Shown here: positions 19,760 to 59,833 of the stretch, piece after piece | How positions within the stretch are numbered: position 1 is the first letter of the stretch | Layout of the letters: each line of letters starts with the position of its first letter | Source: Nitrospira sp. | GTDB lineage: Bacteria > Nitrospirota > Nitrospiria > Nitrospirales > Nitrospiraceae | Direction: 5' to 3' | NCBI GenBank assembly: GCA_015709715.1 | Contig: CP054184.1 | Coordinates: forward strand, 620,001-684,000 | Length of the DNA: 64,000 nucleotides | Position numbers and translations under genes: made by a program | The notes under the pieces: model-generated | Told to the model about the DNA's origin: nothing | Databases searched by the model: none | Seen by the model: only the letters and a program-made list of their open reading frames with translations

Positions 19760-19863
19760 ACTTTTTCTCGCCGCAGTAGACCTTCGTCTTCGTCCGTCCG
19801 TCGTAGTGAGTGGGCCGCACATCGGCTCGACCACCAGTGGTACTACGACGGAAAGGATGAGAT

Positions 19864-32500: not shown

Positions 32501-32685
32501 CAGCCGGGCGGTGGCACATCGGCCTGGTGGTCATCAACGGCCTCATGCTGTCGACGCTGCTGACCCTGTTCCTGGTGCCGTTGATCTATACGATGTTGGC
32601 CGAGCTGCGTTGGCGAGGTCCCGTGCGGCAGGTGAAGGAAACGGACCGCCCGGAGGTCGTGGCGCTTAAGCCGACGCAGTCCTGA
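29569..32685 (+). CDS. RND-family inner-membrane efflux permease (HAE1 type)
   Basis: 1038 residues, normal length. Begins [20 protein letters not shown] (TM1); proton-relay helix [20 protein letters not shown] with the paired Asp residues; [20 protein letters not shown]; second half ending in the cluster of helices around [20 protein letters not shown]. Two large periplasmic loops as in AcrB/MdtB. A proton-driven exporter of amphiphilic compounds; related RND pumps export or recycle pyoverdine-type siderophores. The last 20 bases overlap convergently with the end of the terminal NRPS gene, joining export and synthesis loci tightly. Confidence 0.92.
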
Positions 32686-35600
32686 GTGTTGCGAGCGCCT
32701 CTCCAATCCGTTGGTGGGCGTGGATGCTGTGGACGGCATCCATGTGGTCTCCGACCACAGTCTCCACCGTGACCGGTCCGGTCGTATGCTCCGACCAGTC
32801 GACCGGCCCCTGTCCCCGGCGCGCGAGGGTCGACGTCGTCCACCACACGTGGATCGGCGCCTTGATCGGATGGCTTCGGGTCACGATCAGGAACCGTGCC
32901 GCCTCCCTGGCCAAGGTATAGCCGAGTTTCAATGACCCGATCGAGGCCTCTGCTTCTTCGGGAGAGAGAAAGTCCCGTTCTCGCGCCCAACGAATGGCCG
33001 TCTCCAATCGTTCCTCCTCGCCCAACGACTCCAACCGCTCCCGCAAGGCCTCCCGCTCCGCATCCGGGATCGCATCGAAGGCTTCCCGCTGGTCGCGCCG
33101 GATGTAGGCGATCAATTCCTCCACCGGAGTCGGCCCGTCCGCCGCATAGAGGGCCTGATTCGGCTGGGTATCCAGGAGACCGAGAAAGGCCACCGACTCG
33201 CCGGCCCGTTCCAGCGTCTGCGCCGTCGCCAAGGCCAGCACGCCACCGTTCGACCAGCCGACCAGATGATAGGGACCATGCGGCCGACAATCACGAATCA
33301 GCGCAGCCTGCTGTTCGGCAAGCTTCGGAATGGATAGGTCTTGCCAGCGCAGGGAAAAGAGATGGCCCAGCGAGAGGCCGTACACCGGGCGCCCTTCCTC
33401 CAGAGATCGTGCCAACGGCCGGTAGGCCTGCACATGGGTCCCGTCAGGATCGAAACAAAACAACGGCGGCAAGGCACGGCCCTCGCGCAGGAGGACAAGC
33501 TCCGCAAAAGCCAAGGGGCACTCCCCTTCGAGCCGCCGGCTCAGTTGCTCCAGCGTCGGGTGCTGGAAGAGATCCATCACGGTCAGCGGCTGATCCACGA
33601 CCGCCTGCATCCGAGCAATCGCCTGTACGGCCAACAGAGAATGGCCCCCCAAATCGAAGAAGTTATCCTGAAGACCGATCCGCTCGACGCCGAGCACCTG
33701 GCTCCAGATGGCGGCCAGCTGCTGTTCGGTCACCGTGGCCGGCGCCTCATAGGCGGTCGGGCGCGGCGCCTCGACGTCCGGTGCGGGCAAGGCCTGGCGG
33801 TCCACCTTCCCGTTCGGACTCAACGGCAGCTGCGCCAGCCGGACGACCACCGCCGGCACCAGATACTCCGGCAGCGTCTGCGCCAGCCCCGCCTTGAGCG
33901 CCGCGGGCTCGAACGGCTGCGCCGGGTCCGTCGTCACGTAGCCCACGAGCCGGGCGCCCCCCGGGCCGTCCCGCCGCGCCACCACCACGGCCTCCCGAAT
34001 CCCCGGCTGCTGCCGTAGCGCCGCCTCCACTTCCCCCACCTCGATGCGCACGCCCCGGATCTTCACCTGATGGTCCAGCCGTCCCAGATACTCGATGGTC
34101 CCGTCCGACCGGTACCGCACGAGATCGCCTGTCCGGTAGAGCCGTTGGCCCGGCTGCGCACTGAAGGGGTCCGGCACGAACCGCGCCGCCGTCAGGGCCG
34201 GCCGCCGATGGTACCCGCGCCCCACCCCGATCCCGCCGATATAACATTCCCCCGGCACCCCGATCGGCACCGGCTCCCCCTGCGGGTCCCGCACATAGAT
34301 CTGGAGATTGGCGATGGGCCGCCCGATCGGCACGGTGGCCGCCGGCGGGGTCGGACAGGTCCAGGCCGTCACGTCGATGGCGGCTTCGGTAGGCCCGTAG
34401 AGGTTGTGCAGAGCCACCCCCGGCAACTGCTGCTGCACCCGCGGCGGGACCGTCGCCGGCAGGGCTTCGCCGCTACAGACGATCTGCCGGAGACTCCGGC
34501 AGGTCTCCACCCCAGGCTGGTCCAGGAAGGCCTGCAACATGGGCGGCACGAAGTGCAGCGTGGTCACACCCTGCGCCACGATATGCTGGATCAACTGAGC
34601 CGGGTCCTTGTGGGCGCCGGGTTCGGCCATGACCAGCTCGGCCCCGACGAGCAACGGCCAGAAGAATTCCCACACGGACACGTCGAAGCTGATCGGCGTC
34701 TTCTGCAGCACCCGGTCGGCGGCGGTCAGCCCATAGGCCTCTTGCATCCACTGAAGCCGGTTGCGGAGGCCCGCATGCGTATTGCCCGCCCCTTTCGGCT
34801 GCCCGGTGGAGCCGGAGGTGTAGAGCACGTAGGCCAGTTGCGCGTCGGCCAGCCGCCCCGGCGGCGGCGTGGCCGGATAGGTGGCCAGGGTGGCCCGGTC
34901 CCGATCCAGGCAGAGGGTCGGGCCGGCATGCGCCAACCGCGCCGCCTGCGCCCCGTCGGTCACGAGCAGCGCCGCCTGGCTGTCGTCCAGCATGTAGCGG
35001 AGGCGCGCGACGGGATAGGAGGGATCGAGCGGCACGAAGGCCGCGCCCGCATACCACGTCCCCAGCAGGGCCACCACCAGGTCCACCGACCGCTCCAGGG
35101 CCACGGCCACCAGCGCCTCCGGCCCGATGCCCCGCCCGCGGAGCGCCTGGGCCACTTGATAGGCCTGCTCGAGCAACGCCGCATAGGTCACCGTCGTCGC
35201 CCCCGCCCGCACCGCGATAGCTGCCGGCGTCCGCGCCGCCTGCGCCGCAAGCTGCACCGGCACCGCCGCATCCGGATAGACCCGCCCCGTCCGGTTCCAC
35301 ACCCCCACCACCTGCTGCCGCTCTGCCCCGGTCAAGAGCGGAAGGGCGCTCACGGGGGTTCGGACATCTCGGACCAGCGCATCCAGAATGGATTCATAAC
35401 GAGCCAACAGCCCCTCGACCGTGACGGAGTCGAACAGATCCGTATTGTACTCGATGGCCACCACGAGTCCTCCCTCCGTCTGCTGCACCGTCATCGAGAG
35501 GTCGAATTTCGCGGTGGTGCTGTCGATCTCGATCGGCTCGAACTCCAACCCACTCACCTCCAACTCGGACGCAGGCGCGTTCTGGAGGTCGAACATGACC

Positions 35601-38600
35601 TGAAAAATCGGCGAGCGGCTGACATCGCGTGTCGGGTGCAGTACGTCCACGAGCTTTTCGAACGGTGTCTCTTGATGGGCATAGGCCTCCAGACAGGCCT
35701 CCCGCACCGCGGCGATTACCTCGGCGGAGGAGGCATCCCGGGAAATCTGGGTGCGGATCGCCAGGGTATTGACGAAGAACCCGATGAGGCCTTCGGTCTC
35801 TTTCCTGGTCCGGTTGGCAATGGGGGTTCCGACGATCAGGTCGCTCTGCCCCGTCATCCTGGCCAACAACATGAAGAAGGCGCTCAACAGCATCATGTAC
35901 AGGGTGGCGCCCATCCGCCGCCCCAAGGCGGACAGTTCGGCGGCACGCGCAGGGTCAAGGGTCGAGCTGACCATCGCCCCCCGTGACGTTTGCACGGCCG
36001 GTCTCGGTCGATCCGTCGGCAAGTCCATCACGGGCAATTCGCCGCCCAGCACCGTCTTCCAAAATGCCAAGTCTCGTTCGAGCAGGGGTCCTGCCATCCA
36101 GGCGCGTTGCCATTGCGACAGATCGGCGTACTGCAAGGGCAACTCCGGCAAGGGCGAAGGCCGGCCTTCCACGTGGGATGCATAGAGGGCCGTCATCTCC
36201 CGGACCAGCACATGGGCGGACCAGGCGTCCGACACGATGTGGTGCAACGTGAGCAGCAACAGGTGTTCGGTCGGTCGGAGCCGGATGAGACTGACCCGCA
36301 GCAGCGGGCCGTAGCGCAGGTCGAACGGACGTTCGGCCTCGACCGCAGCCAACCGAATCGCCGCTCGATCTCGTTCCTCTTCGGGAAGATGCTGGAGATC
36401 GATCAGAGGGAGCGTGAAGGCCGGCTCCGCAGCGATCACCTGCATCGGGACCCCGTTGAGGCTGTGAAAGGTGGTCCGCAGCGCTTCGTGGCGCCGCATC
36501 ACCGCTCGGAAGCTCCGTTCCAACGCCTCGACATCGAGCGGACCCCTGACACGCAACGCGATCGGAATGATGTAGGCCGTGCTGTCCGGCTCCAACTGTG
36601 CCAATACCCAGAGCCGTTGTTGGGCGAACGACAGGGGCACCGGGCCGGAGCGCGGGATCGGCTGCGGCGCGGGGAGCGGTTCCGCCAGGTCCGTTCCTCT
36701 GGCCGCTTCGGCCACCTGGACCAGTCGGGCGACCGTGGGCGCCTCGAAGAGGGTGCGTAACGGGAGATCGACCCGCAGGGCTTGGCGCACCCGTGACATG
36801 ACCTGCGTGGCAAGGAGCGAATGACCGCCCAAATCGAAAAAGTTGTCCTGGACACCGACGGCGTCCCGTTTCAACACATCACACCAAATCCCGGCCACAA
36901 TCTCTTCCGTGGCCGTGGCCGGAGCCATGAACCGTCGACTGTCCGGCCCCTCACGATCCGGTTCCGGCAGAGCGCCGCGATCCACCTTGCCATTGGCCGT
37001 CAGGGGCAGGGCCGGCAGAACGGTCGCAGCCGCAGGCACCATGTAATCGGGCAACTGCGAACGGAGAAAGTCCTGGATCACCCGGCTCTCCCCCTCCGTT
37101 CCCGGCCCGACCAGATAGGCCGCGAGGAAGGGATCGCCTTGGTGGTTCTCGCGTACCGCCACGACGGCATCCTGCACGGCTGGATGCTGCCGCAGAACCG
37201 ATTCGATCTCCCCCAGTTCGATCCGGAACCCTCGAATCTTCACTTGATGGTCCACCCGACCTAGGAATTCGATCGAACCGTCAGGCAGCCGCCTGGTGCG
37301 GTCGCCTGTGCGATAGAGGCGGGCGCCTGGTTGCGACGCATGGGGGTTGGGCACGAACCGTTCGGCGGTACGGTCCGGTTGATTCCAATATCCGCGCGCG
37401 AGGCCTTGGCCGCCCAGATACAGTTCCCCCGCCACGCCGATCGGCACCGGTTCCTGGCGGTCGTCGAGGATGTAGGCTTCGAGGTTGTCGAGGGGACGGC
37501 CGATGGGGACCGTGCGGGCGAGACGCATCACCGCATCATCGGTCACGACAGCGGTCAGGGCGCCGACGGTCGTTTCCGTGGGGCCATAATGGTTGATGAC
37601 GGTGCAGGTCGCCTGCCGCCGCACCTGATCGGCTAAACCCCACGACAGCGCCTCGCCGCCGAACAGGAGAAACTTTCGCGGCCAGAGCGCCCGGCCATCT
37701 CCGGTGGCCAGCAGGGCCTTGAAATGGGAGGGGACGATCTTCAGCACGTCGATGGGATGCTCAGCGAGATAGGCACCGAACAACCGACCGTCCGTCGCAG
37801 TCTCGTAGCCGATGACATGAAGACAGCCGCCGGAGGTCAAGGCGGGAAAAATCGCGCTATATCCCAAGTCTGCGCTCAAGGTCGAGACGGTCGCAAACTG
37901 CAGCGGTTCCTGTGGGTCCAACTGCTTCGAGATCGCCAGGGTGTAGTTCACGAGGTTGCGATGGGAGACGGCCACACCCTTGGGCTGACCGGTCGAGCCG
38001 GAGGTAAAGATCACATAGGCCAGGGCGTCCGGTGACAGCACCAGATCGAGGTTGCCGTCCGGTTCGTCAGCCACCAGCTCGCTGAGGTCCAGGGTCATGC
38101 CGTGGAAGATCGGCCGAACCTGGTCGGATGGAGCCTGCGCTACGAGGATCCCAGCGCCGCTCTGCGCCATCTGCGGCGCGAGTCGCACGGACGCATGCGC
38201 CGGATCGACCGGCACATAGGCCGCGCCGGCCTTCAGCACCCCCAACATGGCCACGATCATCTCGGTGGAGCGATCGAAACAGAGGCCGACCCGATCGCCT
38301 GGTTGCACGCCGCGCCGCCTCAACCCACGGGCCACCCGGTTCGCCTGTCGATTAAGCTCGTCGTAGGACAACCGCCGCTCGCCGGCCACGACGGCGGAAG
38401 AGGCCGGTCGGCACACCGCCTGTGCCTCAATCAGTCGATGAATCGGAAGCATAGGGTCCAGCGGACTGGTCGTTTGATTGAACTCTCGCGTGAGCCTGAT
38501 CCGTTCCCGAGTCCCCACCAGGTCGACTTCATCGATCGACAGCGTGAGGCATTCGGGAAGGCGACGCGACAGTTCCAGAAATCGATCGGCCAAGGCCTGG

Positions 38601-39817
38601 ACCATGACCGCCGGGATACGGTCCGCGTCAAAATGCCAGGTCAGTGCCAGCCCCGCCTCGTCTTCAAGAGCAGCGAGCCTGAGTTTGAGGGGCTCGGCGC
38701 AAAAGCTGCTCTCCGCGAGGGTGACGGCACCGGAGGCCGTCCGGTTGGGCTTGGCGCGACGACCATATTCGAAGCCGATCCCCGCGCGCACAGCCTCCGC
38801 CTCTTCTTCCCCCTGCTCCACCGCATAGTAGTGCTGCCAGTCTTCCGCTTGCCCCTGCTCGCGTGCAATCAAGGCCACTAGGTCTTGCAGCGCCGGATTC
38901 CCCTCCATCCGAAGGTGGAGCGGCAACCAGCATTCGAATAATCCGATCCCTCCTTGCAACTCCTCGAACGAACGCCCCTCGGTACGCCACCAACAGATCA
39001 GATCAGTTCGGCCGGTCGTCCGATAGAGGGGGACCATCCAACAGGCAAACAGCACAAGCGGGAGAGACACCTGTGCAGCGGCGGCGGCATCTCGCAGTCG
39101 TTCCAAGTCTGCAGCGGAAAGCAGACGTTGGACTGCTTGGGAGGCGGCATCCAACCCATCGAGACGGTCCGTCCGCTCGAAGGGCAAAAGCACGACCTGG
39201 TTGCTGGTAAGTTTCCGTCCGGCCCACCAGGCCCGCCCTTGCTCCGCCTCTTCGCCCTCCAGCAACTCATGGTGCCATTCAGAAAATTGACCATATTGGA
39301 CAGGCGCCTCGTCCACCGTCCCGTCGTTGCCCAGATCCAAGAGCAGGCTGAGTTCGGCGGCCACATTCGCCAGCGACCAGTGATCGGCGCAGAGCCCCGG
39401 CATCTCCAGGATCAGCCGCCCGGAGACATCCGTCAGGCGGCAGAACGTGCCCCGTATCAGCGGCCTCGTTTCCCAATCGGGATCTACTATTCGACGTACT
39501 GCGTCCCCGGCAGCCTGTTCGCGTGTGCGCTCGTCGGGGAGGTGCCGCAGGTCGACGACCTGCCAGAACAGATCGGCCTCCTCGTTGATCACTTGGAACG
39601 GAACCTTCATACCGGGCTCCCGGTAGAAGCTCGTGCGAAGACTGTCATGGCGGGCGATCACCCGGCGCAGGGCTCGATGCACCGCCTCCTCGTCGAACGC
39701 ACCCTCCAGCTGGACCACCGCCCTGGCCTGTCCGCGATGGCCGCGTTGTTGCCACAACCAGAGTCGCTTCTGGTGGGGTGACAGCCGCAGCCCCTGAACC
39801 TCGATCTCCTGTTGCAT
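32666..39817 (-). CDS. NRPS, terminal: interface-like C domain, A(Asp), T, C, A(Ser), T, TE
   Basis: 2383 residues. Domains: atypical condensation-like domain (aa about 10-430) in which the HHxxxDG site reads LCADHWS; A1 (442-955), whose pocket residues I read as DLSKLGHVGK, close to the Asp code; T1 with [15 protein letters not shown] (Ser about 998); C2 (1060-1490) with [10 protein letters not shown]2 (1495-2039) read as DVWHVSLIDK, a Ser code; T2 (about 2059) with [15 protein letters not shown]; thioesterase (2092-2380) with GWSNGG and a late [11 protein letters not shown]. The TE makes this the last protein of the line, releasing the peptide by hydrolysis or cyclisation. The first domain probably acts as an interface for the hydroxylase fused to the preceding protein. 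GGGGGGAGG precedes the ATG. The A2 cassette is a near-exact copy of two others in this cluster. Confidence 0.92.
33690..35343 (-). repeat. serine A-domain cassette, copy 1 (1654 bp)
   Basis: By eye identical to 50398-52051 and 56919-58572 apart from one silent base (33767 region, GTC/ATC on the plus strand). It spans from the C-A linker ([19 protein letters not shown]) to the A-T border ([10 protein letters not shown]), i.e. one complete adenylation domain. Sequence diverges abruptly on both sides. Confidence 0.92.
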
Positions 39818-39826
39818 GCCTCCCCC

Positions 39827-42800
39827 CTATGACGTCATGGAGTGAACAGCCGACTGGGCGATCATGTCACCCATCGCGACGACGATCTTGCGGGGTCCGA
39901 CAAAGGGGTCGCGCGCATGGGCCACGAGCATGTTGTCGAGCATAATGAGGTCTCCCTCCTGCCATGGAAACCGCACCGCGGTCCGCTCGTACAGGGCGCC
40001 GATTTCCTCGACAACCTCATCCTCGATGGTGGTGCCGTCACCGTAGTAGACGTTTCTCGGGAGCGAATCGATACCGAGCATCGACAGGAGAGACTCCCGC
40101 ACCGCCGGCTCCAAGCAGGAGACGTGGTGAAGCTGGATCTGGTTGAAGAACACCGATTCCCCGGTCTCGGGATGTTCGATGATGGCCGGACAGAGCTGTT
40201 TGGTGCGCAGGCCGTCCTTCTCCATCCATTGCCAGGTCATGCCGTTACGGACGCACAGGGCCTCCACGGCGGCCTTGTCGGTCGTCCGAAAGAAATCCTG
40301 CCAACTCACGTCGACGCCCGGCACGAAGTTACGGACGTACATGAGCTGCTTGCTGCGCAGTCGCTCGCGCAGGTCCGGCCTCAGCCCCTGGAACATCAGC
40401 CGGCCGTCCACGATCGGCGTCTGTCCTCCCTCCCGTGCCGCCTGCAGGCAGAAGAAGAACTGCTTCTGCGGCCAGCGATGCATGTGAGAACTCTCGTTGT
40501 GGAAAAGGATGGGTTTCTCCGATGGATAGGGCGTCGAGCCGTAGACATGACGACCGCTCTTCTCGCGTGGCAAATCGCCATAGTCTCCGAACAGCTCGCT
40601 GCAGAAGGCTTGCGCGACGGATTCGAAGTCCTGCACCGTCTTGAGCGCGAACCCGCGGAACAGCAGGGCGCCAGACTGCAACAGTTCACGCTGCAAGCGC
40701 GGGCGTTGATCCCTGACCCATCCGGCCAGATCGACATCCTCCACCGCCGGGGTGTAGAGCCAAGGCATCGCATGACCTTCCACGAGCGGCCGGCCGGTCA
40801 CCAGCGTGCGCTGCGCCAACGCGACCGGCTTCGGCTTGATCGCCTTGAATCGCTGGAGCCGCTGATCGTTCCGTTGCTGCTGTTCCATCTTCTGCGCCTC
40901 CTTTGCCTCCCCATCGTCCGTCTCCAACGTATCGATCCCGCGCTCCGGCGCAAGTCCGATCTCCTGCAACAGCCGTAGAAACCGTTGCGTCCATCCGGCG
41001 ATCGTCTCGAATTCGAACAGATCGCGGCTGAACTTCCACAAGCCGGCGCAGCCGTCCTCCGTTTCTTCCATGAACAGGCCCACGTCGAACCGCGACACCT
41101 CGTGCTCGAACTCCAAGGACTCGACGCTCACGCCGGCCAGTTGCAGCGAGGGCGGCGGCACGTTCTGCAACACGAACAGGACCTGTACCAGCGGGTTCCG
41201 ACCGAGATCCCTTGTCAGCTTCAGCGCATCCACGATCTTCTCAAACGGCACATCCTGGTGGGCATAGGCCCCCAAGGCCGTCTCCCGCACCCGCCCCAAG
41301 AGCTGCACGAAGGACGGATTGCCGCTCAGATCCGTACGCAGGGGCAGGAGGTTGACGAAGAACCCCACAAGCTGTTCGGTCTCAGCGCGGTTCCGGTTGG
41401 CCACGTCTGTGCCGACCAGGATGTCGGTCTGTTTCGCCAATTGGGACAACAGCACCTTGAAGGCCGCGAGCAGCGTCATGAACAGGGTCACGCCCTGACG
41501 CCGACTCAATCGCCGGAGCGGCTCGAGCGTCTCTCCGGGCACGTGGAACGTGAGCCGTCCGCCTCGATAACTCTGGCGTTCAGGCCGCGGATGGTCGGTC
41601 TGCAGCCTCAATTGCGGGGGCGTGGACCCGAGCCGTCGCTTCCAGTAGACGATCTCTCGTTCGAGCAAGGCTCCCTGGAGCCATTGCCGCTGCCACAGCG
41701 CGAAGTCGCGATACTGGATCGGCAAGGCGGGCAGCAGCTGCTCCACCTCATCGCCGGCCGCCCCGCTCGATCCCTCCGCCTGGTTCGCCAGCGCGTTGTA
41801 CATCGTCGCCACCTCCTGCGTCACGACCGCCAGCGACCAGGCATCGGCCGCGATGTGGTGGACCGTCACGAGCAGGATATGGGCCTCGGCGCTCACCTTC
41901 AGCAGGAGGGCACGGATCGGCAGGTCTCGATCCAGGTGAAACGGTCGTTGCGCTTGGGCTTCGGCATGGTGATGAATGGCCGCCGTCCGCTCCGACTCCG
42001 ACAGGAGTGTGAGGTCCTCGACCGGAATTGAAAAGTGATCGAGTTGGATCACCACCTGCCTCGGTTCCCCGTCCACGGCCGAGAAGGTGGTGCGCAGGGT
42101 TTCGTGGCGGCGCAGGAGCGCGAGAAAACTCCGTTCCAGGATTCCGTGATGAAGCGTTCCGCCGAGACGGAGGGCAAACGGCAAATTGTAGGCCCCGCTT
42201 TCCGGGTCCATTTGCGCGAGGAACCACAGACGTTGCTGCGCGAAGGAAAGCGGCAGGTGCTCGGCCTGCGGTGCCGGCAGGAGCGGGGGAATCTGTCCGC
42301 CGTCCCCTGCGAGCAGGGCTTGATCCACGGCCAACGCAAAGGCCTCGACCGTCGCATGGTCGAACAGCGTACGGAGGGGGAGGTCGATGCGAAACGCCGC
42401 CCGCACGCGGGACATGACCTGCGTAGCGAGCAGGGAATGGCCGCCGAGTTCGAAAAACTGATCCCGTCGCCCGATGCGCTCCAGCCCCAAGATCTCGGCC
42501 CAGATCCCCGCCACCAGCTCTTGCGTCTGCGTCACGGAGGGTTCGAAATCATCGCCCCGGCGGTCCGCATCCGGTGTGGGCAACGCCTTCCGGTCGATTT
42601 TTCCATTCGGCGTGAGCGGCAGGGACGGGAGGAAGACGAAGGTGGCCGGTACCATGTAGTCGGGCAGCGTCCGCCGCAGAAACAGTCGGAGACGATCGGC
42701 GTTCAAGGTCGCCGTCGTCGCCACATAGGCCACCAATTGCCGATGCCCCTGCTGCAACTCGCTCGCCACCACGACACAACGCTCGACATCGGGATGCTGC

Positions 42801-45800
42801 GCCAACCTGGCTTCGATTTCGCCCAGTTCGATCCGGAATCCCCGAATCTTGACTTGATGATCGCGCCGCCCCACGAATTCGAGCGCCCCGCCAGGCCGGT
42901 GGCGGACCAGATCTCCGGTTCGATAGAGCCGACTCCCCGGCAAGGAGGAAAAGGGATCCGGGACGAAGACCGCCGCCGTCCTCGCCGGATCACCGAGGTA
43001 TCCGCGACCCACGGCCACTCCCCCAACACACAACTCTCCGGCCACGCCAGGCGGCATGAGGTCCATCCGGCGATCCAGGACATACAGCCGCACACCATGG
43101 ATCGGCTGCCCGATCGGCATTCTGAGTTCCTCCTCGGGCGGCTGCTCACGAATGCAGGCGAGCGCGACATCGTCGGAACATTCCGCCGGGCCGTAGGCGT
43201 TCACGAGCGGCACGGTCGGATAGCGGTCCAACCACCGGCGGCACAGGTCCGGCAACAAGGCCTCACCAGTGGGCAGCAACCAGCGCAGCCGGGGAAGAGA
43301 CAAGGAGGGCCCCGCGAGGAGGCTGCTCAACAACGAGGGCACCACCTCCAGCACCGAGACCTGCCGAGCCGCAACCTCGGCCAACAGCCGTTGAGGATCG
43401 CGTACCACGTCGTCGGGAATAATCTGCACCGTGGCCCCGCAGAGCAGCGGGGTCAGGAACTGCCAGACGGAGATATCGAAGCATTGCGAAGCAGTCTGGG
43501 CGACCACATCACCGGGACCAAGTTCGAGCGTCGGAATCTTCGTCATGAGATGGTTCATCATTCCCCGGCTCTCGACCATCGCGCCCTTGGGCACCCCGGT
43601 CGACCCGGAGGTAAAGATGACATAGGCGAGGCGTTGCGGCGCCGCCAGCGGGGGAGGATTGTCGCCTTCCCGCGCCTCTCCTGAGAAATCCTCCATCAAC
43701 ACAAGATCCGGCCCCGCCCCCGCCGGCAGCATCCTTGCGACCACCGCCGCCAAGGCTGCATGGCGGCCCCCTGTGATCAGGACCTTCACCCGGGCGGTGG
43801 AGAGGATCTGCACCAACCGCTCGGCGGGGTGATGGGGATCCAGCGGCAGATAGGCGCCACCGGCCTTCAACACCCCCACGATCATCGATAACAGCGCCGG
43901 CCCACGATCGTCCAAGAGTGCCACGATGCTGTCGGCCCCCACGCCGCGCTTGCGCAGGCCATGGGCGATCTGATTGGCCGCGCGATTCAGTTCCTCGTAG
44001 CTCAGGCGCGCGTCACCCTGTTGCACCGCGACGGCCCCCGGCATCCGCTCGACTTGGGCTTCGAACAGCGTGGCAAAGTCCTCAGGGACAGGCGCATCGC
44101 GATCGCACCAGTTCCAGTCCACCAGCAGGCGATGGCGCTCCCTCTCGTCGAGCATCGGAAGGTCACGGATCGCCGCCTCGGGGGACGCGACCATGGCCTC
44201 AAGTAATCGCTTGAGGTGGTCGAGCATGCGCGCCACGTCGGCCTGTTCGAAGAGCCGCCGGTCGTAGCTCAGGCGCACCCCCATCGACTCCCCGGGATAC
44301 CCGACCACGGTCATGGGATAGTTCGTGTGGACACGGTCTTGGTCGTAGGACAGAGCGCGATCGTCCCGTTCTTCGCCGAGCCTCGCGTCCTTCGGCGCGT
44401 TCTCGAACACGAGCAGACTGCGGAAGAGCGCCTGTCCCGACGGCACGTCGCTCCATTGTTGGATACGCACCAACGGCGCATATTCGTATTGGCGGATCCG
44501 ATAGTTTTCCGCCAGCAGATGTCGGAGCCACGTCGTCACGGGCATCTCAGGCGACAGGGTGACGCGAAGCGGCAGCGTGTTGATGAAGAGGCCGACGATC
44601 TCCTCCACGCCGGGCAGGTCGGTCGGCCTTCCCGCGACGGTCACGCCGAACAAGACCTGCGACTCCCCGCTATAGCGCGAGAGCAGGATGGCCCAGGCTC
44701 CCTGCAGGAAAGTATTCAGAGTCACATGGTGGCGTTGGGCCAAGACCCGCAGTTGTTCGGACACCTCCGGCGACAACTCCATGAACACGTCGCCCACCTC
44801 GACTCCGGTTGCGGAGCTATCGGGGTCCACCCGCTCGATCCCCAGTGGGGTCGGCGTGGTGAAGCCGGCCAATTCCTGTTTCCAGAATTGTTCGGCCGCA
44901 GCCTGGTCCTGCCGTTGCAGCCAGGCGATGTAATCGCGATAGGGCGCCGGCTTGGGCAGCGCCAACGGCTTTCCTTGGAGGTAGGCATCGTAGTGGGTGA
45001 GGAAGTCCATCATGAGGAGGGAGAAACACCAGTCGTCGGTGAGGATATGGTGAAAACTCCGCACGATAGCGTACCGATCCAGGCCGCGCCGTACGAGACG
45101 GATGCGCATGAGCGGCGCACGCACGAAATCCAACCCCTCTTTCAATTCCTGCTCCAGCATGTCCCGCATGCGGACCTGTTGTTGCTCGTCACTCAGGCCC
45201 GCCCAATCCAAGTCCTGAATCACAGTCTCCGCCGCGACCCGTCGATGGACGAGCTGGAGCGGGGCGGGCAAGTCCTTCCACATGAAGGAGGTTCGGAGCA
45301 TCGGGTAGCGGTCGATGACGCGCTGCCAGGCCCGGCCGAAGACCTCCCGATCCAGACGCCCCTCCCACGCGTAATACTGCTGCATGAGATAGATGCCGGA
45401 ACCGGGGTTCATCAGGGTGTGAAACAACATGCCTTCCTGCATCGGCGACAGGGGGTAACAGTCTTCGATCTCCGCCCAGTCCTCTCGCCGCCCCACCAGT
45501 TCCTCCGAGGCCAACCCTGTCAGCGGGAAGACCGGCAGGGCCGGTGCCGCGTTCTCCTCGACTGCCCTCACCTGGATCTGACCGGCATCGGCCGGCGCGG
45601 CCTGTTTCACCTGTGCCACCGCCGCCGCGGCAGCCACGGTTTGATGTTCGAACAGTTGCTTGGGTGTCAGCTTGACCCCGTCACGGTTTGCGCGCGCAAT
45701 GACCTGCAACGTGCGGATCGAATCGCCCCCCAAGGCGAAAAAGTTGTCGTGCACGCCGACGCGTTCGACTTGCAAGACGGTTTGCCAAATTCCCGCCAGG

Positions 45801-48781: not shown

Positions 48782-51700
48782 GGCTCCGTTCCATGGTCTC
48801 AAGAATGTTGTCGAGGGCGTCCTGATCGATCTGCACGTCCGGAAAATCCGACGGCGTGTATCCCCCGGCGTCCGGCGCACAACAGTGAACAATCAGGTCG
48901 CACAACCGCTGCCGATAGGAAGCCCCGAGCCTCTCGATCGTCGCTCGCTTGAACCGCGCACCGCTGTAGGTCCAGGTCATGCTCAACCGTCCATCCGTCA
49001 CGTCCGCAGTGATGGTGAGTTCATAGGGCATCCGATTCGAGGCACCGTGCTCCCGCCCGGTCGGTTCCGGCGCTAGTCCGAACAGGGCCTGCTCGGCCCC
49101 GCCTCGGTCGAGTTGGCCCAGATAGTTGAAGCAGACCTGCGCCGTGGTCTGACCTCGAAGGCGCTCGGTTTCGGGTGACCGGCCCAGGTACCGCAAGAGG
49201 CCGTACCCCACCCCGCCGGACGGGACGGCGCGCAGTTGCTCCTTGATGCCTTTGACGATGTCGCCGGTCGATCCCTTCGGCAGCCGGAGGAGCAGCGGAA
49301 AGATGCTGGTGAACCAGCCGACCGTCCGTGACAGATCGGTTCCTGGAACGATCGACTCGCGGCCATGGCCTTCGAGGTCCAGCAGCAAACGATCCTCGCC
49401 CGTCCACCAATGGAACGTGTGGACCAAGGCGGCCAACAAGAGATCGTTCACCTGGGTCTTGTAGGCGGCCGGCGCCTGCCGCAACAGGGCTTCCGTTTCC
49501 TCCTGGCTGAACGAGAGGTGGCAAGTCTCCGCCGAAGCCTCACTCCGTTCTCCCCGCGGATCATCAAGCGGCAACGAGAGGTCCCTCGGCTGGTCCTGTT
49601 CGCTCCAGAATGCCGCCTCACTGGACAGGGCCCCGGACTCCGCCAGGGTCTGTGCCGCTTCGGTCCACTGTTTGATCGACGTGGTTTTGGGCGTAAAGAT
49701 CGGTTGGCTTCCCTCCTCGGCCAGATAGGCCCGCTCAAGGTCCTCTAGGAGAATGCGCCAAGACACCCCGTCGACGACGAGATGGTGCGCCATCAACAGG
49801 AACCTGCTTGGCCGCGTCGGCCCTAGATCGAACAACAGCGCGCGGAACAGCGGCCCCTGTTCCAGATGCAGGCTCTGCTGGTACCGTTCGGACTCGTCGG
49901 CGATAGCGTTTGCTGCTGCTTCGTCGGAGACTTCGCTCAGGTCGACGGAAGTCAGGAGATCTTCGGATGAAACCATGGCCTCGATCCGCGCCGTCGGGCC
50001 GTTCGAGAGGTCGAAGCGCATGCGCAGGCCATCGTGCCGCTCCAGCAGCAGGCCAAGCGCCCGCGCCAACCTGGCCCGATCCGGCTGTTCAGAAATCGTC
50101 ACCATGAGCGATTGGTTCCAATGATGGGGCTCGGACAATCGCTGCTCGAACCACCAGCGTTGAGCCGGCGTCATCGGCAAGGGTCCCGAGACGAGCCCCT
50201 GCTCGGCCTGGATCACCGGCGCCGTAGCCGACTCCCGATTGGCCACCGCCGCGAGCGCCTCGATCGTTTGTTGCTGAAACAGCTGCCGAGGCGTCAACGA
50301 CAGGCCGATCTCCTTGGCCTGGGCAATCACCTGGAGGCCGAGAATCGAATCCCCGCCGAGTTCGAAGAAGTTGTCGTGGCGGCCGACCTGGGCAAGCCCG
50401 AGCACCTGGCTCCAGATGGCGGCCAGCTGCTGTTCGGTCACCGTGGCCGGCGCCTCATAGGCGGTCGGGCGCGGCGCCTCGACATCCGGTGCGGGCAAGG
50501 CCTGGCGGTCCACCTTCCCGTTCGGACTCAACGGCAGCTGCGCCAGCCGGACGACCACCGCCGGCACCAGATACTCCGGCAGCGTCTGCGCCAGCCCCGC
50601 CTTGAGCGCCGCGGGCTCGAACGGCTGCGCCGGGTCCGTCGTCACGTAGCCCACGAGCCGGGCGCCCCCCGGGCCGTCCCGCCGCGCCACCACCACGGCC
50701 TCCCGAATCCCCGGCTGCTGCCGTAGCGCCGCCTCCACTTCCCCCACCTCGATGCGCACGCCCCGGATCTTCACCTGATGGTCCAGCCGTCCCAGATACT
50801 CGATGGTCCCGTCCGACCGGTACCGCACGAGATCGCCTGTCCGGTAGAGCCGTTGGCCCGGCTGCGCACTGAAGGGGTCCGGCACGAACCGCGCCGCCGT
50901 CAGGGCCGGCCGCCGATGGTACCCGCGCCCCACCCCGATCCCGCCGATATAACATTCCCCCGGCACCCCGATCGGCACCGGCTCCCCCTGCGGGTCCCGC
51001 ACATAGATCTGGAGATTGGCGATGGGCCGCCCGATCGGCACGGTGGCCGCCGGCGGGGTCGGACAGGTCCAGGCCGTCACGTCGATGGCGGCTTCGGTAG
51101 GCCCGTAGAGGTTGTGCAGAGCCACCCCCGGCAACTGCTGCTGCACCCGCGGCGGGACCGTCGCCGGCAGGGCTTCGCCGCTACAGACGATCTGCCGGAG
51201 ACTCCGGCAGGTCTCCACCCCAGGCTGGTCCAGGAAGGCCTGCAACATGGGCGGCACGAAGTGCAGCGTGGTCACACCCTGCGCCACGATATGCTGGATC
51301 AACTGAGCCGGGTCCTTGTGGGCGCCGGGTTCGGCCATGACCAGCTCGGCCCCGACGAGCAACGGCCAGAAGAATTCCCACACGGACACGTCGAAGCTGA
51401 TCGGCGTCTTCTGCAGCACCCGGTCGGCGGCGGTCAGCCCATAGGCCTCTTGCATCCACTGAAGCCGGTTGCGGAGGCCCGCATGCGTATTGCCCGCCCC
51501 TTTCGGCTGCCCGGTGGAGCCGGAGGTGTAGAGCACGTAGGCCAGTTGCGCGTCGGCCAGCCGCCCCGGCGGCGGCGTGGCCGGATAGGTGGCCAGGGTG
51601 GCCCGGTCCCGATCCAGGCAGAGGGTCGGGCCGGCATGCGCCAACCGCGCCGCCTGCGCCCCGTCGGTCACGAGCAGCGCCGCCTGGCTGTCGTCCAGCA

Positions 51701-54700
51701 TGTAGCGGAGGCGCGCGACGGGATAGGAGGGATCGAGCGGCACGAAGGCCGCGCCCGCATACCACGTCCCCAGCAGGGCCACCACCAGGTCCACCGACCG
51801 CTCCAGGGCCACGGCCACCAGCGCCTCCGGCCCGATGCCCCGCCCGCGGAGCGCCTGGGCCACTTGATAGGCCTGCTCGAGCAACGCCGCATAGGTCACC
51901 GTCGTCGCCCCCGCCCGCACCGCGATAGCTGCCGGCGTCCGCGCCGCCTGCGCCGCAAGCTGCACCGGCACCGCCGCATCCGGATAGACCCGCCCCGTCC
52001 GGTTCCACACCCCCACCACCTGCTGCCGCTCTGCCCCGGTCAAGAGCGGAAATGCCGCAAGCGTCCGCTGCGGCTCCGCCACGATCCCTGCGAGCAGGGT
52101 GAGGAAATGGCCGGCCATGCGCTCGATCGTGGCCGGTTCGAACAGATCCAGATTGAATTCGAAGAAACCGGTGAGGCCCTCCGGTGCCAGCGTCATCTCC
52201 AACGACAAGTCGAATTTGGCGCTCCCGGGATCGACTTCTACCGGTTCGATCGTGAGGTCCGGAATCTCGATCATGTCCCGGCCCAGGGTCTGCAACGCGA
52301 ACATCACTTGAAAGAGCGGTGCATGGCTCAGATCACGCTCGGGCTTGAGCGCATCGACCACCTGCTCGAACGGTACGTCCTGGTGGCTCTGCGCACCCAA
52401 GACTGTTTCCCGCACCCGCTCCAGAAGGTCGACGAAGCGCGGATCGCCGCTCACATCGGTCCGCAACACGAGGGTGTTGACGAAGAAGCCGATCAATCCC
52501 TCAGTCTCGACGGTCGTGCGATTCGCAATCGGTGTCCCGATCGACAAGTCCCCATCACCGCTATACCGATGCAAGAGCACTTGGAAGGCCGCGAGCAAGG
52601 TCATGAACAGGGTCACGCCCTGTCGCCGCCCCAGCCCCTGCAGGGCTGCGGTGACGTCCGGCGGGACCGTGAAGTTGTGGCGGGCACCACGAAAGGTCTG
52701 GACGGTGGGACGGGGATGGTCGGCGTACAGGCTCACCATCGGAGAGGCCCCTGCGAGGGCCTGCTTCCAATAGCCCAGTTCATGCTCCAGCACGTCACCT
52801 GTCAGCCACTCGCGTTGCCACTGTGCATAGTCGGCGTACCGCACCGTCGGAGCGGGGAAGGGCACGGGCTGCCCCGCACGGAGGGCGCAATAGGCGGACA
52901 CCATGTCCGCCAGCAACAGGTTGAGCGACCAGCCGTCGGCAATGGCATGGTGTAACGTGACGAACAACAGATGATCCTGCTCGCCCAATTGCACCAGCTT
53001 GATGCGCCACAAGAGGCTGCCTTCCAAGGCGAAGGGCAGTCGGGCCTCGCTTGCGGCCAGGTCCGCCACGTATTGGTCCAAGGGCAGGCCGGCTGCCGGA
53101 TCGGCAACCTGCCGATCAAACGGCAGGGTCGGAGACTCTGTCGTTACTTGAACGGGGCGGCCCTCGACCAGGAGAAACCGCGTGCGCAACTGGTCATGCC
53201 GCATTGCGACGGCTTCGAAGCTGCGAGCCAACGCCTCGACATCGAGGGGGCCGCGGAGTCGGAGACCGAACGAGAGGTTGTACAGCCAACTCTCCGGTTC
53301 CAGTTGGGCCAGGAACCAGAGCCGCTGCTGTGCAAAGGACAAGGGAGCCGGACCCTCCCGGTGCGATGCCGTCAAGGGAGGAACCTGCCGGCCGTTTCCT
53401 TCCGCACGAACCCGATCGACGGTCCGAGCCAAATCCTCAACGGTCGGACATTCGAAGGCCGCGCGCAACGGAAGCTCGATTTGAAAGGCACTCCGGATGC
53501 GGGAGACCACCTGGGTGGCCAAGAGCGAATGTCCCCCCAGCTCGAAAAAATGGTCCCGCACCCCGACCCGTTCGAGGCCGAGAATGTCCGCCCAGATGCC
53601 GGCCAGCAATTCTTCCGTCACGGTGCGAGGCGCCTTGTAGTTTGATCCGCCGAGCCCGTCCAGGTCGGGAGCAGGCAAGGCCTTTCGGTCGACCTTGTCG
53701 TTCGGCGTGCGCGGCAAGGCATCGAGCGATACAAAGATCGACGGCACCATGTACTCGGGGAGATGGGCCTGAAGTGCGGCCCGTATCCGTTCGCTATCGA
53801 TCGACTTGCCGTCCTGCGGGACGACGTAGGCGACCAACCGCCGTTCTCCGGGACGATCTTCGCGGACGATGACCGCCGCTTCACAGACCTCGTCTTGATC
53901 GGTCAGGTAGGATTCGATTTCACCGAGTTCGATCCTGAATCCGCGCAGCTTGACCTGATGGTCCATGCGTCCCACATATTCGATCGTCCCGTCGGGCCGA
54001 TAGCGGGCCAGGTCGCCGGTGCGATAGAGCCTTGCTCCCGGCTCGTTCGCGAACGGATCCGGCACGAATGCTTCCGCGGTTCGTGCACGATCCTCAACGT
54101 ATCCGCGACCGACACCGATGCCGCCGACGCAGAGTTCGCCCGAGATCCCCACCGGCACCGGCGCAAAAAACCGATTGAGGATACAGAGCCGCAGGTGCTG
54201 AATCGCCTTCCCGATCGGGACCCGGACGGAATCCTCCGACGGCGCTGCCAGGATGGGATGGACGGCGACGTCGTCGGCACATTCGGCCGGGCCGTAGGCG
54301 TTCATCAGGGGAATGCCTGGATAGCGCTCGAACCAACGGCGGCAGAGGGCCGGAGGCAAGGCTTCACCAGTCGGCAGCACCCATCGCAGGTGTTGAAGAT
54401 GGTTCACGGGGCCTGAGCGGTCGCCTGCATCCAGCAGGGCCTGCAAGACGGCGGGCACTGCTTCATAGATGGTCACCCCGGCCTCGTCCAGGTGCGCGCG
54501 CAAACGGGCCGGCTCCCGCACCAGCTCATCGGGAACGATGTGGGTCCGCGCTCCGCAGAGTAAAGCGGTCAGGAATTGCCAGACGGAAATGTCGAAACAT
54601 TGCGATGCGGTCTGCGCGACCACATCCGCCGGCGCGATCGACAGGGAAGCCACCTTGCTGTCGAGGTTGTTGAGCATGCCGCCCAGCGTGACCATCGCCC

Positions 54701-56642
54701 CCTTCGGCACGCCGGTCGATCCGGACGTGTAGATGACATAGGCCAACTGATCCATCCGCGAGGGTCTGGGACGATCCTCGTCGCTCCCTTGCTCCGACAA
54801 CAGCTCGTCCAGCGTCACCACCAACGGACGGAACGCTGCCGGCATCCCCGACAGGGCCAGCTCCAAAAGGCCACTCAGACGCCGCGAGACGACGACGACG
54901 CGCACGCGGCTCAGCTCCAGCAGCCGCGCGATGCGCGCGACCGGATGGTGCGGATCGAGCGGCAGATAGGCAGCGCCGGCTTTGAAGCAACCCACGATCA
55001 TGGTGAGCAGGTCGACGCCGCGTTCATCCAGTAAGGCTACGATCGAGTCCGGGCCGATGCCTGCCGCCCTCAGCCGATCGGCCAGGCGATTGGCCCCTCG
55101 ATTCAACTCTTCATAACTCAGTGCGCGCGCACCACAGGTCACCGCCACGGCCTGCGGGGTCCTGCGCACCTGCGCTTCGAAACGGGCCGCAAAACTACGA
55201 TCGTCCTGCGGGACATCCGTCTGGCCCGTCCCCTGAGCCAACAGCAAGGCGCGTTCCTCTTCACCCAGCATCGGCAGGTCGCCGATGCGCGCGTCCGGCT
55301 GCAGGATGAGGTGCTCCAAGACACGCTTGAGATGCCCGATCATCCGTTCCACCGTCTCCGAGTCGAACAGCCGGCGGTCGTACGAAAGTTTGAGTCCCAG
55401 CTCCTTGCCCGGCCAGCCCATGACGGTCATGGGATAATTCGTGTGGACGCGATATTGCTCTTCCTCGGCGCGGAACATGATCCGCCCCTCGCAAAGCGCG
55501 GGATCGACCGGGGCATTCTCGAATACGAACAGGCTGTGAAAGAGGGCTTCTCCGCGCGGGACTTCGCTGCAGCGTTGAATCTGAATGAGCGGCGTGTATT
55601 CGTACTCGCGAAGCCTGATGTTCTCCGCCAGCAGATCCTTGAGCCAAGCCAGCACCGGCCGATCCGGCGACACCAACAGGCGCAACGGCAGGGTGTTGAT
55701 GAACAGCCCCAGCACCGATTCGACGCCCACGAGCTGCGTCGGTCGGCCCGCCACTGTCACGCCGAACAGCACGTCCTGCTCGCCGCTGTAGTGCGCGAGC
55801 AGGATCGCCCAAGCCCCCTGCACGAAGGTGTTCGGGGTCACACGATGTTGCTGGGCCAGAGCCGTGAGTCGAGTCGTGAGATCCGCACTCAGGTGTACGC
55901 AATGATCCGCCGCGTCATCGTTTTGATCGGCCAGACCTTCCGGAGGACGATCGTAGGCGAGCGGCGTGGGCGTGGAAAACCCCTGCAGATACTCGCGCCA
56001 AAACCGGTTGGCTGCGTCCAGATCCTGCTTCTGAAGCCAGGCGATGTAGTCCCGATAGGGGCGGGGCTTGTCCGCCCGGCAGACGAGGCCCTGGGCACAG
56101 GCCTCGTAATGGGCCAAGAAATCCATCAGGAGCGGCGAGATGCACCATTCGTCGAGCAGGATGTGGTGGAAACTATGCACGAACTGATAGGTGCGCTCGG
56201 TCAGACGGATGAGTCGCAGACGCATGAGCGGCGCCTTGGAGAAATCGAACCCCTCCTCCAGTTCCTGCTTCAAGAGCGCGTCGAGATCGGCAATCTGCGC
56301 CGCCCGCTGCTTTCCCCGCCAGTCCATGACGTCGAGCGGCGCCTCGATCTCCTTGTGAACAGCCTGCAGGGGACGTTTTTGACTTTTCCAGACAAAGGAA
56401 GTCCGCAGGATCGAATGACGTGCGATGACCTGTTTCCAGGCTCGACGGAACAACGCCGCGTCCATCTCGCCTTCCACGTAGTAACGGTTTTGCATCAGGT
56501 AGATGCCGGTGCCGGGATTCATCAGCGTGTGGAACAACATGCCCTCCTGCATGGGAGAGAGCGGATAAATCGCCTCGATGTTCTTGAAAGTTCCACCGGT
56601 CACGCGCTCAGCCGCCCGCTTCTCGGTCCTGTTCGCCTGCAT
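48771..56642 (-). CDS. NRPS: C, A(Dab), T, C, A(Ser), T, E
   Basis: 2623 residues. C1 (aa 17-460) begins [15 protein letters not shown]; its active-site motif is HHILLDEWC, with Glu in place of Gly. A1 (490-987) pocket read as DIWELTADDK, Dab-like. T1 about 1034 ([11 protein letters not shown]). C2 (1090-1530) with canonical [10 protein letters not shown]2 (1537-2067) is the repeated Ser cassette (DVWHVSLIDK). T2 about 2094 ([11 protein letters not shown]). Epimerisation domain (2154-2613) with [37 protein letters not shown] and FNYLGQL, so serine is passed on in D form. AAGGAG lies before the start, two bases after the preceding stop. The end overlaps the next gene by 11 bp. Confidence 0.93.
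50344..52051 (-). repeat. serine A-domain cassette, copy 2 (1708 bp shared with copy 3)
   Basis: Shares 50398-52051 with copy 1 and the longer 50344-52051 with copy 3 (offset 6521 bp). The extra 54 bp encode the start of the T domain up to [11 protein letters not shown], so copies 2 and 3 share a breakpoint different from copy 1. Confidence 0.92.
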
Positions 56643-56644
56643 GC

Positions 56645-59600
56645 CTATCCAATCTCCTTCAAGAGGTTCTCCATCTCCTCGTCGCTCAACTCCACATCCA
56701 GAATGTCCGCCGCGTCCTTCTCTTCCGCCGAGGAGGGCATGGCATCGATCCCCCCGATCACCGCCACGGTGGCAGCAGCAGCAACGGTCGGGTGCTCGAA
56801 GAGTTGCTTGGGGGTCAGCGTGATGCCCTCGCGGTGGGCCTTCGCCAGAACCTGCAAGCTCGTGATCGAATCCCCGCCGAGTTCGAAGAAGTTGTCGTGG
56901 CGGCCGACCTGGGCAAGCCCGAGCACCTGGCTCCAGATGGCGGCCAGCTGCTGTTCGGTCACCGTGGCCGGCGCCTCATAGGCGGTCGGGCGCGGCGCCT
57001 CGACATCCGGTGCGGGCAAGGCCTGGCGGTCCACCTTCCCGTTCGGACTCAACGGCAGCTGCGCCAGCCGGACGACCACCGCCGGCACCAGATACTCCGG
57101 CAGCGTCTGCGCCAGCCCCGCCTTGAGCGCCGCGGGCTCGAACGGCTGCGCCGGGTCCGTCGTCACGTAGCCCACGAGCCGGGCGCCCCCCGGGCCGTCC
57201 CGCCGCGCCACCACCACGGCCTCCCGAATCCCCGGCTGCTGCCGTAGCGCCGCCTCCACTTCCCCCACCTCGATGCGCACGCCCCGGATCTTCACCTGAT
57301 GGTCCAGCCGTCCCAGATACTCGATGGTCCCGTCCGACCGGTACCGCACGAGATCGCCTGTCCGGTAGAGCCGTTGGCCCGGCTGCGCACTGAAGGGGTC
57401 CGGCACGAACCGCGCCGCCGTCAGGGCCGGCCGCCGATGGTACCCGCGCCCCACCCCGATCCCGCCGATATAACATTCCCCCGGCACCCCGATCGGCACC
57501 GGCTCCCCCTGCGGGTCCCGCACATAGATCTGGAGATTGGCGATGGGCCGCCCGATCGGCACGGTGGCCGCCGGCGGGGTCGGACAGGTCCAGGCCGTCA
57601 CGTCGATGGCGGCTTCGGTAGGCCCGTAGAGGTTGTGCAGAGCCACCCCCGGCAACTGCTGCTGCACCCGCGGCGGGACCGTCGCCGGCAGGGCTTCGCC
57701 GCTACAGACGATCTGCCGGAGACTCCGGCAGGTCTCCACCCCAGGCTGGTCCAGGAAGGCCTGCAACATGGGCGGCACGAAGTGCAGCGTGGTCACACCC
57801 TGCGCCACGATATGCTGGATCAACTGAGCCGGGTCCTTGTGGGCGCCGGGTTCGGCCATGACCAGCTCGGCCCCGACGAGCAACGGCCAGAAGAATTCCC
57901 ACACGGACACGTCGAAGCTGATCGGCGTCTTCTGCAGCACCCGGTCGGCGGCGGTCAGCCCATAGGCCTCTTGCATCCACTGAAGCCGGTTGCGGAGGCC
58001 CGCATGCGTATTGCCCGCCCCTTTCGGCTGCCCGGTGGAGCCGGAGGTGTAGAGCACGTAGGCCAGTTGCGCGTCGGCCAGCCGCCCCGGCGGCGGCGTG
58101 GCCGGATAGGTGGCCAGGGTGGCCCGGTCCCGATCCAGGCAGAGGGTCGGGCCGGCATGCGCCAACCGCGCCGCCTGCGCCCCGTCGGTCACGAGCAGCG
58201 CCGCCTGGCTGTCGTCCAGCATGTAGCGGAGGCGCGCGACGGGATAGGAGGGATCGAGCGGCACGAAGGCCGCGCCCGCATACCACGTCCCCAGCAGGGC
58301 CACCACCAGGTCCACCGACCGCTCCAGGGCCACGGCCACCAGCGCCTCCGGCCCGATGCCCCGCCCGCGGAGCGCCTGGGCCACTTGATAGGCCTGCTCG
58401 AGCAACGCCGCATAGGTCACCGTCGTCGCCCCCGCCCGCACCGCGATAGCTGCCGGCGTCCGCGCCGCCTGCGCCGCAAGCTGCACCGGCACCGCCGCAT
58501 CCGGATAGACCCGCCCCGTCCGGTTCCACACCCCCACCACCTGCTGCCGCTCTGCCCCGGTCAAGAGCGGAAGGAGGCCGAGGCACGTATCGGGAGCCTG
58601 CGTCATTGCAACAAGCAAAGTCTCGATGTGTCGAACCATACGGTCCGCGGTCTCATCGCGAAACCGGTTGCGGTGATACCAGAGCGAGAGCATCAGCTCC
58701 TTGCCTGGCAGCACGTTGAGCGTCAGGGGATAATTCGTCTGACCGGAGAGGGCCACCCGTTCGACAACCATGCCGCTCGAACTCTCCAGAGTCTCATCCA
58801 GAGGATGGTTGTCGAACACGATCAGGCTCTCGAACAGGGGTTGGCCGCGCTGGATATCGCTCCAGCCTTGGATCTGGACCAGCGGCGTCTGTTCGAATTG
58901 CCGCAATTCGCCGTTCTGCTCCAACAGACTTCGCAGCCATTCGGTGAGGACAGCCTCGGGAGCCACCCGAACGCGCAGCGGCAGGGTGTTGATGAAGAGG
59001 CCGACCATGCGCTCGATCCCGGGAATGTCGGCGGACCGACCGGACACGGTCGTGCCGAACAACACCTCTGATTCTCGACTGTACCGGCTCAAGAGGATGG
59101 CCCAGGCGCCCTGCACGAGGGTATTGAGCGTCACACGGTGGGTCTGCGCGAACGTGCGCAACTGCGCGCTGGCTTCGGGCGAGAGCGTAATGGTCGCGAT
59201 GCCGTTGGGAGAGCCCTGGGCGATTTCCTCAGGGGCGATCTCTTCGCCCAGGACGGTCGGTATCGTCATGCCCTTCAAGGCGGCGCGCCAGAATCGCCCC
59301 GCCTCGGCCAGGTTCTGCTTCAGGAGTCGAGCGATGTGATGGCGATAGGGCGTCACCGGCTCGAGGCAGGGCACACGCTTGCGTCGCAAGGCTTCGTAGA
59401 CGGTCAGGACTTCCTGCAATAGAATCGGCAGACACCAGCCGTCCATGAGCATGTGGTGGTGCGTCCAGAGGACGTCGTAGGCCTCCTCGGCGACACGAAA
59501 CAGCAGGACCCGCATCAAGGGCGGCAGCTCAAAGTCGAAATCCGTCAGCCGATCGCCCTCCACCAGTCGGCTGAACCACGCCTCCTGCTCGCTTGCCGGG

Positions 59601-59779
59601 CAATCCCGCGCATCCACTTCACGCCAGGGCAGGGCCGCGGCAGGCAGGACGATTTGAATCGGCGAGGCCACTTCGCGCCAGAGGAATCTCGTCCGCAACA
59701 GCGGGTGCCGATCCACGATCTGCTGCCACGCGCTGCGGAACATTGCGAGATCAAGGTCACCCTCCATCCGCCAACTCAT
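56645..59779 (-). CDS. NRPS: C (N-terminus missing), A(Ser), T with acidic C-terminal tail
   Basis: 1044 residues from the first available ATG (59779). The open frame actually continues upstream as [18 protein letters not shown] to a TAA at 59834-59836, directly behind LSPLQ at the end of the preceding gene, so this is the rest of a protein interrupted by a stop. Domains from here: condensation domain lacking its first core motif, with intact [10 protein letters not shown]; Ser A domain (aa about 410-940, repeated cassette, DVWHVSLIDK); T about 963 ([11 protein letters not shown]); and an acidic tail with [19 protein letters not shown] that looks like a docking helix for the next synthetase. 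Whether it is translated separately, by readthrough or not at all cannot be decided from sequence. The next gene follows after two bases. Confidence 0.8.
56865..58572 (-). repeat. serine A-domain cassette, copy 3 (1708 bp shared with copy 2)
   Basis: Identical by eye to 50344-52051. Both borders sit at domain linkers: the C-A linker on the right and within the T-domain core motif on the left. Confidence 0.92.
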
Positions 59780-59833
59780 CTGCTCGATATAGACACCGGA
59801 GACCGGGGCATACAGGCTGTGGAAGAGGAGCCC

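Follow-up and report, generated by a model that had tools for sequence, protein, structure and literature searches.

Probable within-cluster copying of a serine adenylation-domain cassette in a predicted siderophore synthetase of Nitrospira

A nonribosomal peptide synthetase (NRPS) cluster in the genome of Nitrospira sp. carries three nearly identical copies of an adenylation (A)-domain cassette predicted to select serine (Ser). The cluster lies in a 64,000-nucleotide stretch, here called the window, that corresponds to positions 620001 to 684000 of a single-contig genome (GenBank assembly GCA_015709715.1, contig CP054184.1). Very probably, a unit of 1.65 to 1.71 kb, consisting of the linker between the condensation (C) and A domains, the A domain itself, and the N-terminal part of the thiolation (T) domain, has been copied within the cluster by homologous recombination. 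Comparison with orthologous clusters, which a preliminary description of the window had proposed as a check, separates an older pair of copies in modules 2 and 4 from a third copy in the terminal module, which appears to have replaced an A domain of another type (DVEG). That description had offered A-domain exchange or ongoing gene conversion as readings of the three copies, and both apply, although to different copies: recurrent homogenization to modules 2 and 4, and exchange to the terminal module.

Pfam matches and specificity codes give the module order Dab-Ser-Dab-Ser(E)-Asp-Dab-(C-TauD)-Asp-Ser-TE, in which Dab is diaminobutyrate, Asp is aspartate, E is an epimerization domain (that of module 4 was called from its own sequence), and TE is a thioesterase. 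Partly on general knowledge, we take the code DVWHVSLID to denote Ser, DIWELTADD to denote Dab, and DL[T/S]K...G to denote Asp. All NRPS genes of the cluster are on the reverse strand, so the A-T border of each cassette is at its low coordinate. Compared base by base, the three Ser segments (33690 to 35343, 50398 to 52051, and 56919 to 58572) measure 1,654 bp each; the copies at 50398 and 56919 are identical throughout, and the copy at 33690 departs from them at a single base, 33776, where the difference is silent (Asp GAC versus GAT). Between modules 4 and 2, the exact match extends a further 54 bp into the T domain (50344 to 52051 = 56865 to 58572, 1,708 bp) and reaches the codons for LGGDS. 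The preliminary description had recognized the three cassettes of about 1.65 kb with their one silent difference, had placed their borders in the C-A linker and at the A-T border (we find them in the C-A linker and in the A-T/T region), and had called the flanking C and T domains different, which is correct for the C domains but not for the start of the T domains of modules 2 and 4. Near-identical copies occur at only these three places in the 4,156,062 bases (4.156 Mb) of the contig. Chance identity is excluded, because the other A-domain pairs of like specificity in the cluster are only 53 to 61% identical, and their longest exact tracts measure 12 to 19 nucleotides (nt).

An orthologous cluster is present in eight other Nitrospira genomes. 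Within five genomes (G000, G005, G010, G023, and G024), modules 2 and 4 have Ser A domains that are 99.7 to 100% identical to each other, whereas between these species, Ser A domains are 79 to 85% identical; the number of synonymous substitutions per site (dS) separating the module-2 and module-4 copies is 0 to 0.006 within genomes versus 0.43 to 0.65 between species. A maximum-likelihood tree clusters the Ser copies by genome, and grouping by module position is rejected (approximately unbiased test, P = 6e-47). In all five species, identity starts in the C-A linker and continues to the LGGDS of the T domain, over 1,699 to 1,708 bp with 0 to 4 mismatches (the G005 contig starts at the repeat, and its 5' border is a minimum). 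Paralogs are closer than orthologs, identity reaches synonymous sites, and the flanks keep their own ancestry; the Dab and Asp domains and the flanks of the terminal module follow orthology, as in a nonreciprocal transfer. Nor is this a tandem module duplication, as identity stops at the linker and the C domains of the copies differ. Together, these sequence comparisons support recurrent homogenization, that is, concerted evolution, of the module-2 and module-4 Ser A domains across the genus.

Other histories could be proposed for the same identity. If each species had recently duplicated the cassette into the same slot, with no continuing conversion, within-species identity would formally look the same, and the copy in the terminal module may itself be such an event; but the duplication would have to strike one slot, with matching border codons, in five or more lineages, for which conversion between existing copies is the simpler account, and we consider independent duplications unlikely. 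Import from other strains, in which transformation or conjugation brought one cassette into several modules, is very unlikely: interspecies exchange does occur in this cluster, as in the mosaic cluster of G015 and the divergent Ser domain of G019 (both described below), but the foreign allele in G015 broke the identity of the pair rather than creating it, and species-specific identity requires copying inside the genome.

A little less probable still is an assembly or polishing artifact, by which one A domain was placed at three sites or mis-mapped reads erased real differences. Short-read assemblies of this cluster are indeed disrupted by repeats of 1.7 kb. For G018, the assembly holds a single chimeric copy plus a separate contig of 5,066 bp that begins and ends with 127 bp of the repeat, and the G008 contigs stop within the repeat at gaps of 100 Ns; the two assemblies collapse or break exactly at the repeat, the behavior that identical copies produce in an assembler. 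We rejected module loss in G018, where the 5,066-bp contig represents the middle section, looped out and overlapping the repeat on either side (an effect of the assembly graph), and a chromosomal rearrangement at the repeats in G008, where the joins are 100-N scaffold gaps. Against an artifact, the module-2/4 identity recurs in independent assemblies of four other species, including the complete genome of “Candidatus Nitrospira defluvii” (FP929003.1), every copy is bordered on either side by unique sequence, the copies are distinguishable by one single-nucleotide polymorphism and by their 3' border, and 15 to 20% divergence cannot be erased by polishing. Purifying selection can be dismissed: Ser loading is required of both modules and the specificity code is conserved, but synonymous sites are identical within genomes at a dS of about 0.5 between species, and the similarly constrained Dab and Asp domains are not alike.

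The copying reading of modules 2 and 4 leaves the terminal module as a separate case. In seven orthologs (G005, G008, G010, G015, G018, G023, and G024), the last A domain has the code DVEGIGA[V/I]T, in place of which the terminal module of the present genome has the Ser cassette with DVWHVSLID. The DVEG-type A domain shares about 40% protein identity with the Ser domains, and when the terminal gene is aligned with that of G023, identity is mostly 67 to 85% on both sides but drops to 36 to 62% across the A domain. Sequence downstream of the 3' junction is orthologous to the T-TE region of the sister clusters, and the resident T core is still GGHS, in contrast to the GGDS of modules 2 and 4. With an A domain whose ancestry is unlike that of its flanks and a changed specificity code, the third copy is, on the evidence of these alignments, the result of a whole-A-domain exchange in which an unrelated A domain was lost, and it probably alters the predicted siderophore peptide, whose last selector is now Ser. 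No ornithine hydroxylase, which would support a hydroxy-ornithine reading of DVEGIGAVT, scored over the family cutoff in the nine genomes. The terminal module of G019 is also of the Ser type but contains a different Ser domain (72% identical), which we read as an independent event. Elsewhere in the G019 cluster (loci L044 and L045), module 4 is Dab type rather than Ser and module 6 is glycine type rather than Dab, in addition to the different Ser domain of module 8.

The extent of homogenization appears to track similarity. As the preliminary description had stated, the three Dab domains are not copies of one another; they are 58 to 61% identical within this genome versus 70 to 83% to their orthologs, and the two Asp domains are about 55% identical to each other versus 71 to 80% to theirs. 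The longest exact tracts are 1,204 to 1,674 nt in homogenized Ser pairs, 34 nt in the Ser pair of G015, and 12 to 19 nt in Dab and Asp pairs, a pattern consistent with RecA-type homologous recombination. In G015, the two Ser copies have different affinities: that of module 2 resembles G005 (89%) and that of module 4 resembles G024 (94%), with 79.7% identity between them; a scan of contig C4 (L032 and L033) places a G024-like block of about 10 kb, from 81.0 to about 91 kb of the contig, in an otherwise G005-like cluster, with patchy ancestry up to 92 kb. This mosaic probably reflects an interspecies exchange that ended the module-2/4 identity, although a chimeric metagenome contig is a lesser possibility. 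The G015 pair is still nonidentical although the dS to the sampled relative of the donor is 0.18, and its remaining different is as a similarity threshold predicts.

Homogenization is not, however, confined to the serine unit, as had been proposed. G006 has a related, differently ordered NRPS with four near-identical Dab-type cassettes of 1,546 to 1,686 bp or more (C1:851157-890297, L136 to L138), which are 99.3 to 99.9% identical, plus module-level repeats of 3.1 and 2.1 kb. The 5' borders of these cassettes are at the end of the last C-domain helix (LEQIV|AGPGRRL) or in the linker (TWN), and the 3' borders are in the T-domain motif or the A-T linker (ALPAPEAG|). For one pair, identity stops right before the D/H of GGDS/GGHS, a position that differs between T domains that precede E domains and those that precede C domains.

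We propose that the copying proceeded in four steps. The first duplication is older than these species, because the unit occupies modules 2 and 4 in orthologous clusters. As long direct repeats 6.5 kb apart, the two copies have been rewritten to identity repeatedly in each lineage, as the phylogeny shows, most simply by RecA-dependent gene conversion running to the ends of homology, which would fix the borders at the original duplication points. In the present genome, one copy also replaced the terminal A domain, most simply through a double exchange via brief runs of conserved sequence in the C-A linker and T-domain helix 1, making the predicted terminal residue Ser. Finally, the Dab and Asp domains would escape conversion, because at about 55 to 60% identity and with exact tracts of 19 nt or less, they have too little homology to pair; the process would be passive and dependent on similarity, not on serine.

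Several points weigh against this account. Replacement of the terminal A domain by this cassette rests on one genome and would fit either a single recent event or an older one whose identity conversion has maintained. RecA dependence and the direction of copying are inferred. The present strain also has an in-frame TAA (59834 to 59836, reverse strand) where six aligned orthologs have CAG (Gln), a difference of two bases. It lies within SPLQ(Q)GLLFH, a motif of the C domain, and interrupts the module-1/module-2 gene, which forms one frame of about 2,200 amino acids (aa) in sister species. The TAA may reflect real decay, a split gene, or an error, and decay of the cluster in this strain may be compatible with it. 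The preliminary description held that the recombination points keep the synthetase working, which is unsupported for this strain given the broken module-1/module-2 gene; the argument that the module-2/4 junctions would work is the long conservation of their borders in sister species.

Repeated genes such as those for rRNA and tuf undergo concerted evolution by gene conversion. The Nitrospira case is like these in that paralogs are closer within a genome than to orthologs, but here the unit is one domain inside multidomain genes, between unlike neighbors. Substitution of A domains by recombination is well known (PMC7486941, PMC8097286, PMC2174460, PMC3640908, PMC9205934). Baunach et al. (2021) found that the C-A linker and the A subdomain (A-sub) are mostly retained in natural exchanges (PMC8097286), and Calcott et al. 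(2020) described a recombination hotspot between C and A and linker + A as an efficient engineering unit (PMC7486941). As in these studies and in microcystin mcyB1/mcyC (PMC2174460), the A region of one module has taken the place of another module's, the C domain is kept, and the predicted residue is changed, and the C-A boundary is among the natural hotspots of Calcott et al.; in contrast to all three, Nitrospira moves the linker, the whole A domain, and the first part of T together. It is therefore not an A-core swap of the type described by Baunach et al., as the linker, A-sub, and T start lie within the cassette. In the wollamide/desotamide NRPS (PMC9205934), too, an A domain was overwritten from another module of the same genome with a change of residue, but that swap is internal to the A domain and came from another NRPS locus, whereas in Nitrospira the exchange is within one cluster, nearly 100% identical, and recurrent in the genus. 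Pseudomonas lipopeptide NRPSs (PMC9948697) likewise have near-identical A domains in one cluster, read there as domain or module duplication; in Nitrospira, by contrast, the C domains differ and the orthologs show repeated homogenization, not a single duplication. Engineering fusion sites XUT III/IV lie in the FFxxGGxS motif of the T domain (PMC12668312), the same motif that holds the 3' border of modules 2 and 4 (FFELGGDS|I) and Dab borders of G006, although the Nitrospira junctions are natural and the engineered unit spans T to T, not linker to T. We did not find in the literature an A cassette with fixed borders that evolves in concert across a genus, which is weak evidence given the many subscription papers that our search did not cover, and for concerted evolution together with NRPS we found a passing mention only.

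The gene content of the locus (Table 1) predicts a pyoverdine-like siderophore cluster with a peptide product of Dab, Ser, and Asp. Asp-type A domains, a fused TauD dioxygenase, and TonB-dependent receptor genes are those expected of a beta-hydroxy-Asp siderophore NRPS. Around the NRPS genes are genes for an extracytoplasmic function (ECF) sigma factor, FecR, a TonB receptor, PepSY_TM, HlyD, and AcrB. There are two FecR/TonB-dependent receptor sets (11971 to 15749 and 18046 to 22368), the second with an ECF sigma factor. Upstream are genes for a thioesterase, a penicillin-amidase-family acylase, a class III aminotransferase, an ABC exporter, a polyketide synthase, and a further NRPS. At locus L010:1199-6698, such an acylase, aminotransferase, and exporter stand beside NRPS; they resemble PvdQ, PvdH, and PvdE of pyoverdine maturation, names that we apply by analogy. 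In the literature that we searched, we found no paper on this Nitrospira siderophore or NRPS cluster. The upstream NRPS gene at L010:11226-17604 ends, by eye, in a methyltransferase-like stretch following the A core, and the remainder of A-sub and the T domain are on a separate 213-aa frame in +1, after TGA-C-ATG; G006 shows the same break. A direct repeat of about 300 to 450 bp (7741 to 8481; 88 to 92% identity, copies 441 bp apart) lies within a 544-aa frame that matches BACON_2.

Table 1. Features of the NRPS cluster, in window coordinates
Feature	Position	Strand	Remark
Ser A-domain cassette, terminal module (module 8, before T-TE)	33690..35343	-	Match to module 2 includes 35344
Ser A-domain cassette, module 4 (module closes with E domain)	50344..52051	-	Shares 1,708 bp exactly with module 2
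Ser A-domain cassette, module 2	56865..58572	-	
5' border of terminal copy, C-A linker	35320..35344	-	Upstream flank orthologous to sister terminal C domain
3' border of terminal copy, T-domain helix 1	33660..33719	-	Resident LGGHS T core and TE kept
NRPS gene, modules 7 and 8: C-A(Asp-type, DLSKLGHVG)-T-C-A(Ser)-T-TE	32666..39817	-	
NRPS gene, modules 5 and 6 with fused dioxygenase: C-A(Asp-type)-T-C-A(Dab-type)-T-C-TauD	39827..48892	-	
NRPS gene, modules 3 and 4: C-A(Dab-type)-T-C-A(Ser)-T-E	48771..56642	-	
Module 2 frame: C-A(Ser)-T	56645..59833	-	Continuous with module 1 in sister species
Module 1, A code DIWELTADD, Dab-type	59837..64000	-	Extends beyond the window to genome position 684168
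Dab-type A domain, module 1	60107..61810	-	Not homogenized
Dab-type A domain, module 3	53562..55223	-	Not homogenized
Dab-type A domain, module 6	42467..44161	-	Not homogenized

The natural routes by which NRPSs change residues decide where engineers should cut. Published surveys report mainly A-core swaps, whereas in this genus the linker, the A domain, and the T start move and stay identical as one unit; its borders are near good engineering sites (linker + A and XUT III/IV), and several species have retained the module-2/4 borders. The cluster also offers a natural experiment on the threshold for conversion, in which pairs at about 100% stay identical, a pair reset to 80% has not recovered, and conversion is absent at 60%. 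Clusters of this kind are lost or scrambled in short-read assemblies. It is conceivable, though doubtful, that cassettes shuffle continuously within populations, so that cells of one strain carry different cassettes at a given module and make different siderophores; if true, cassette copying would be a generator of diversity, and its natural borders would leave the partner-specific T core and the C domain in place.

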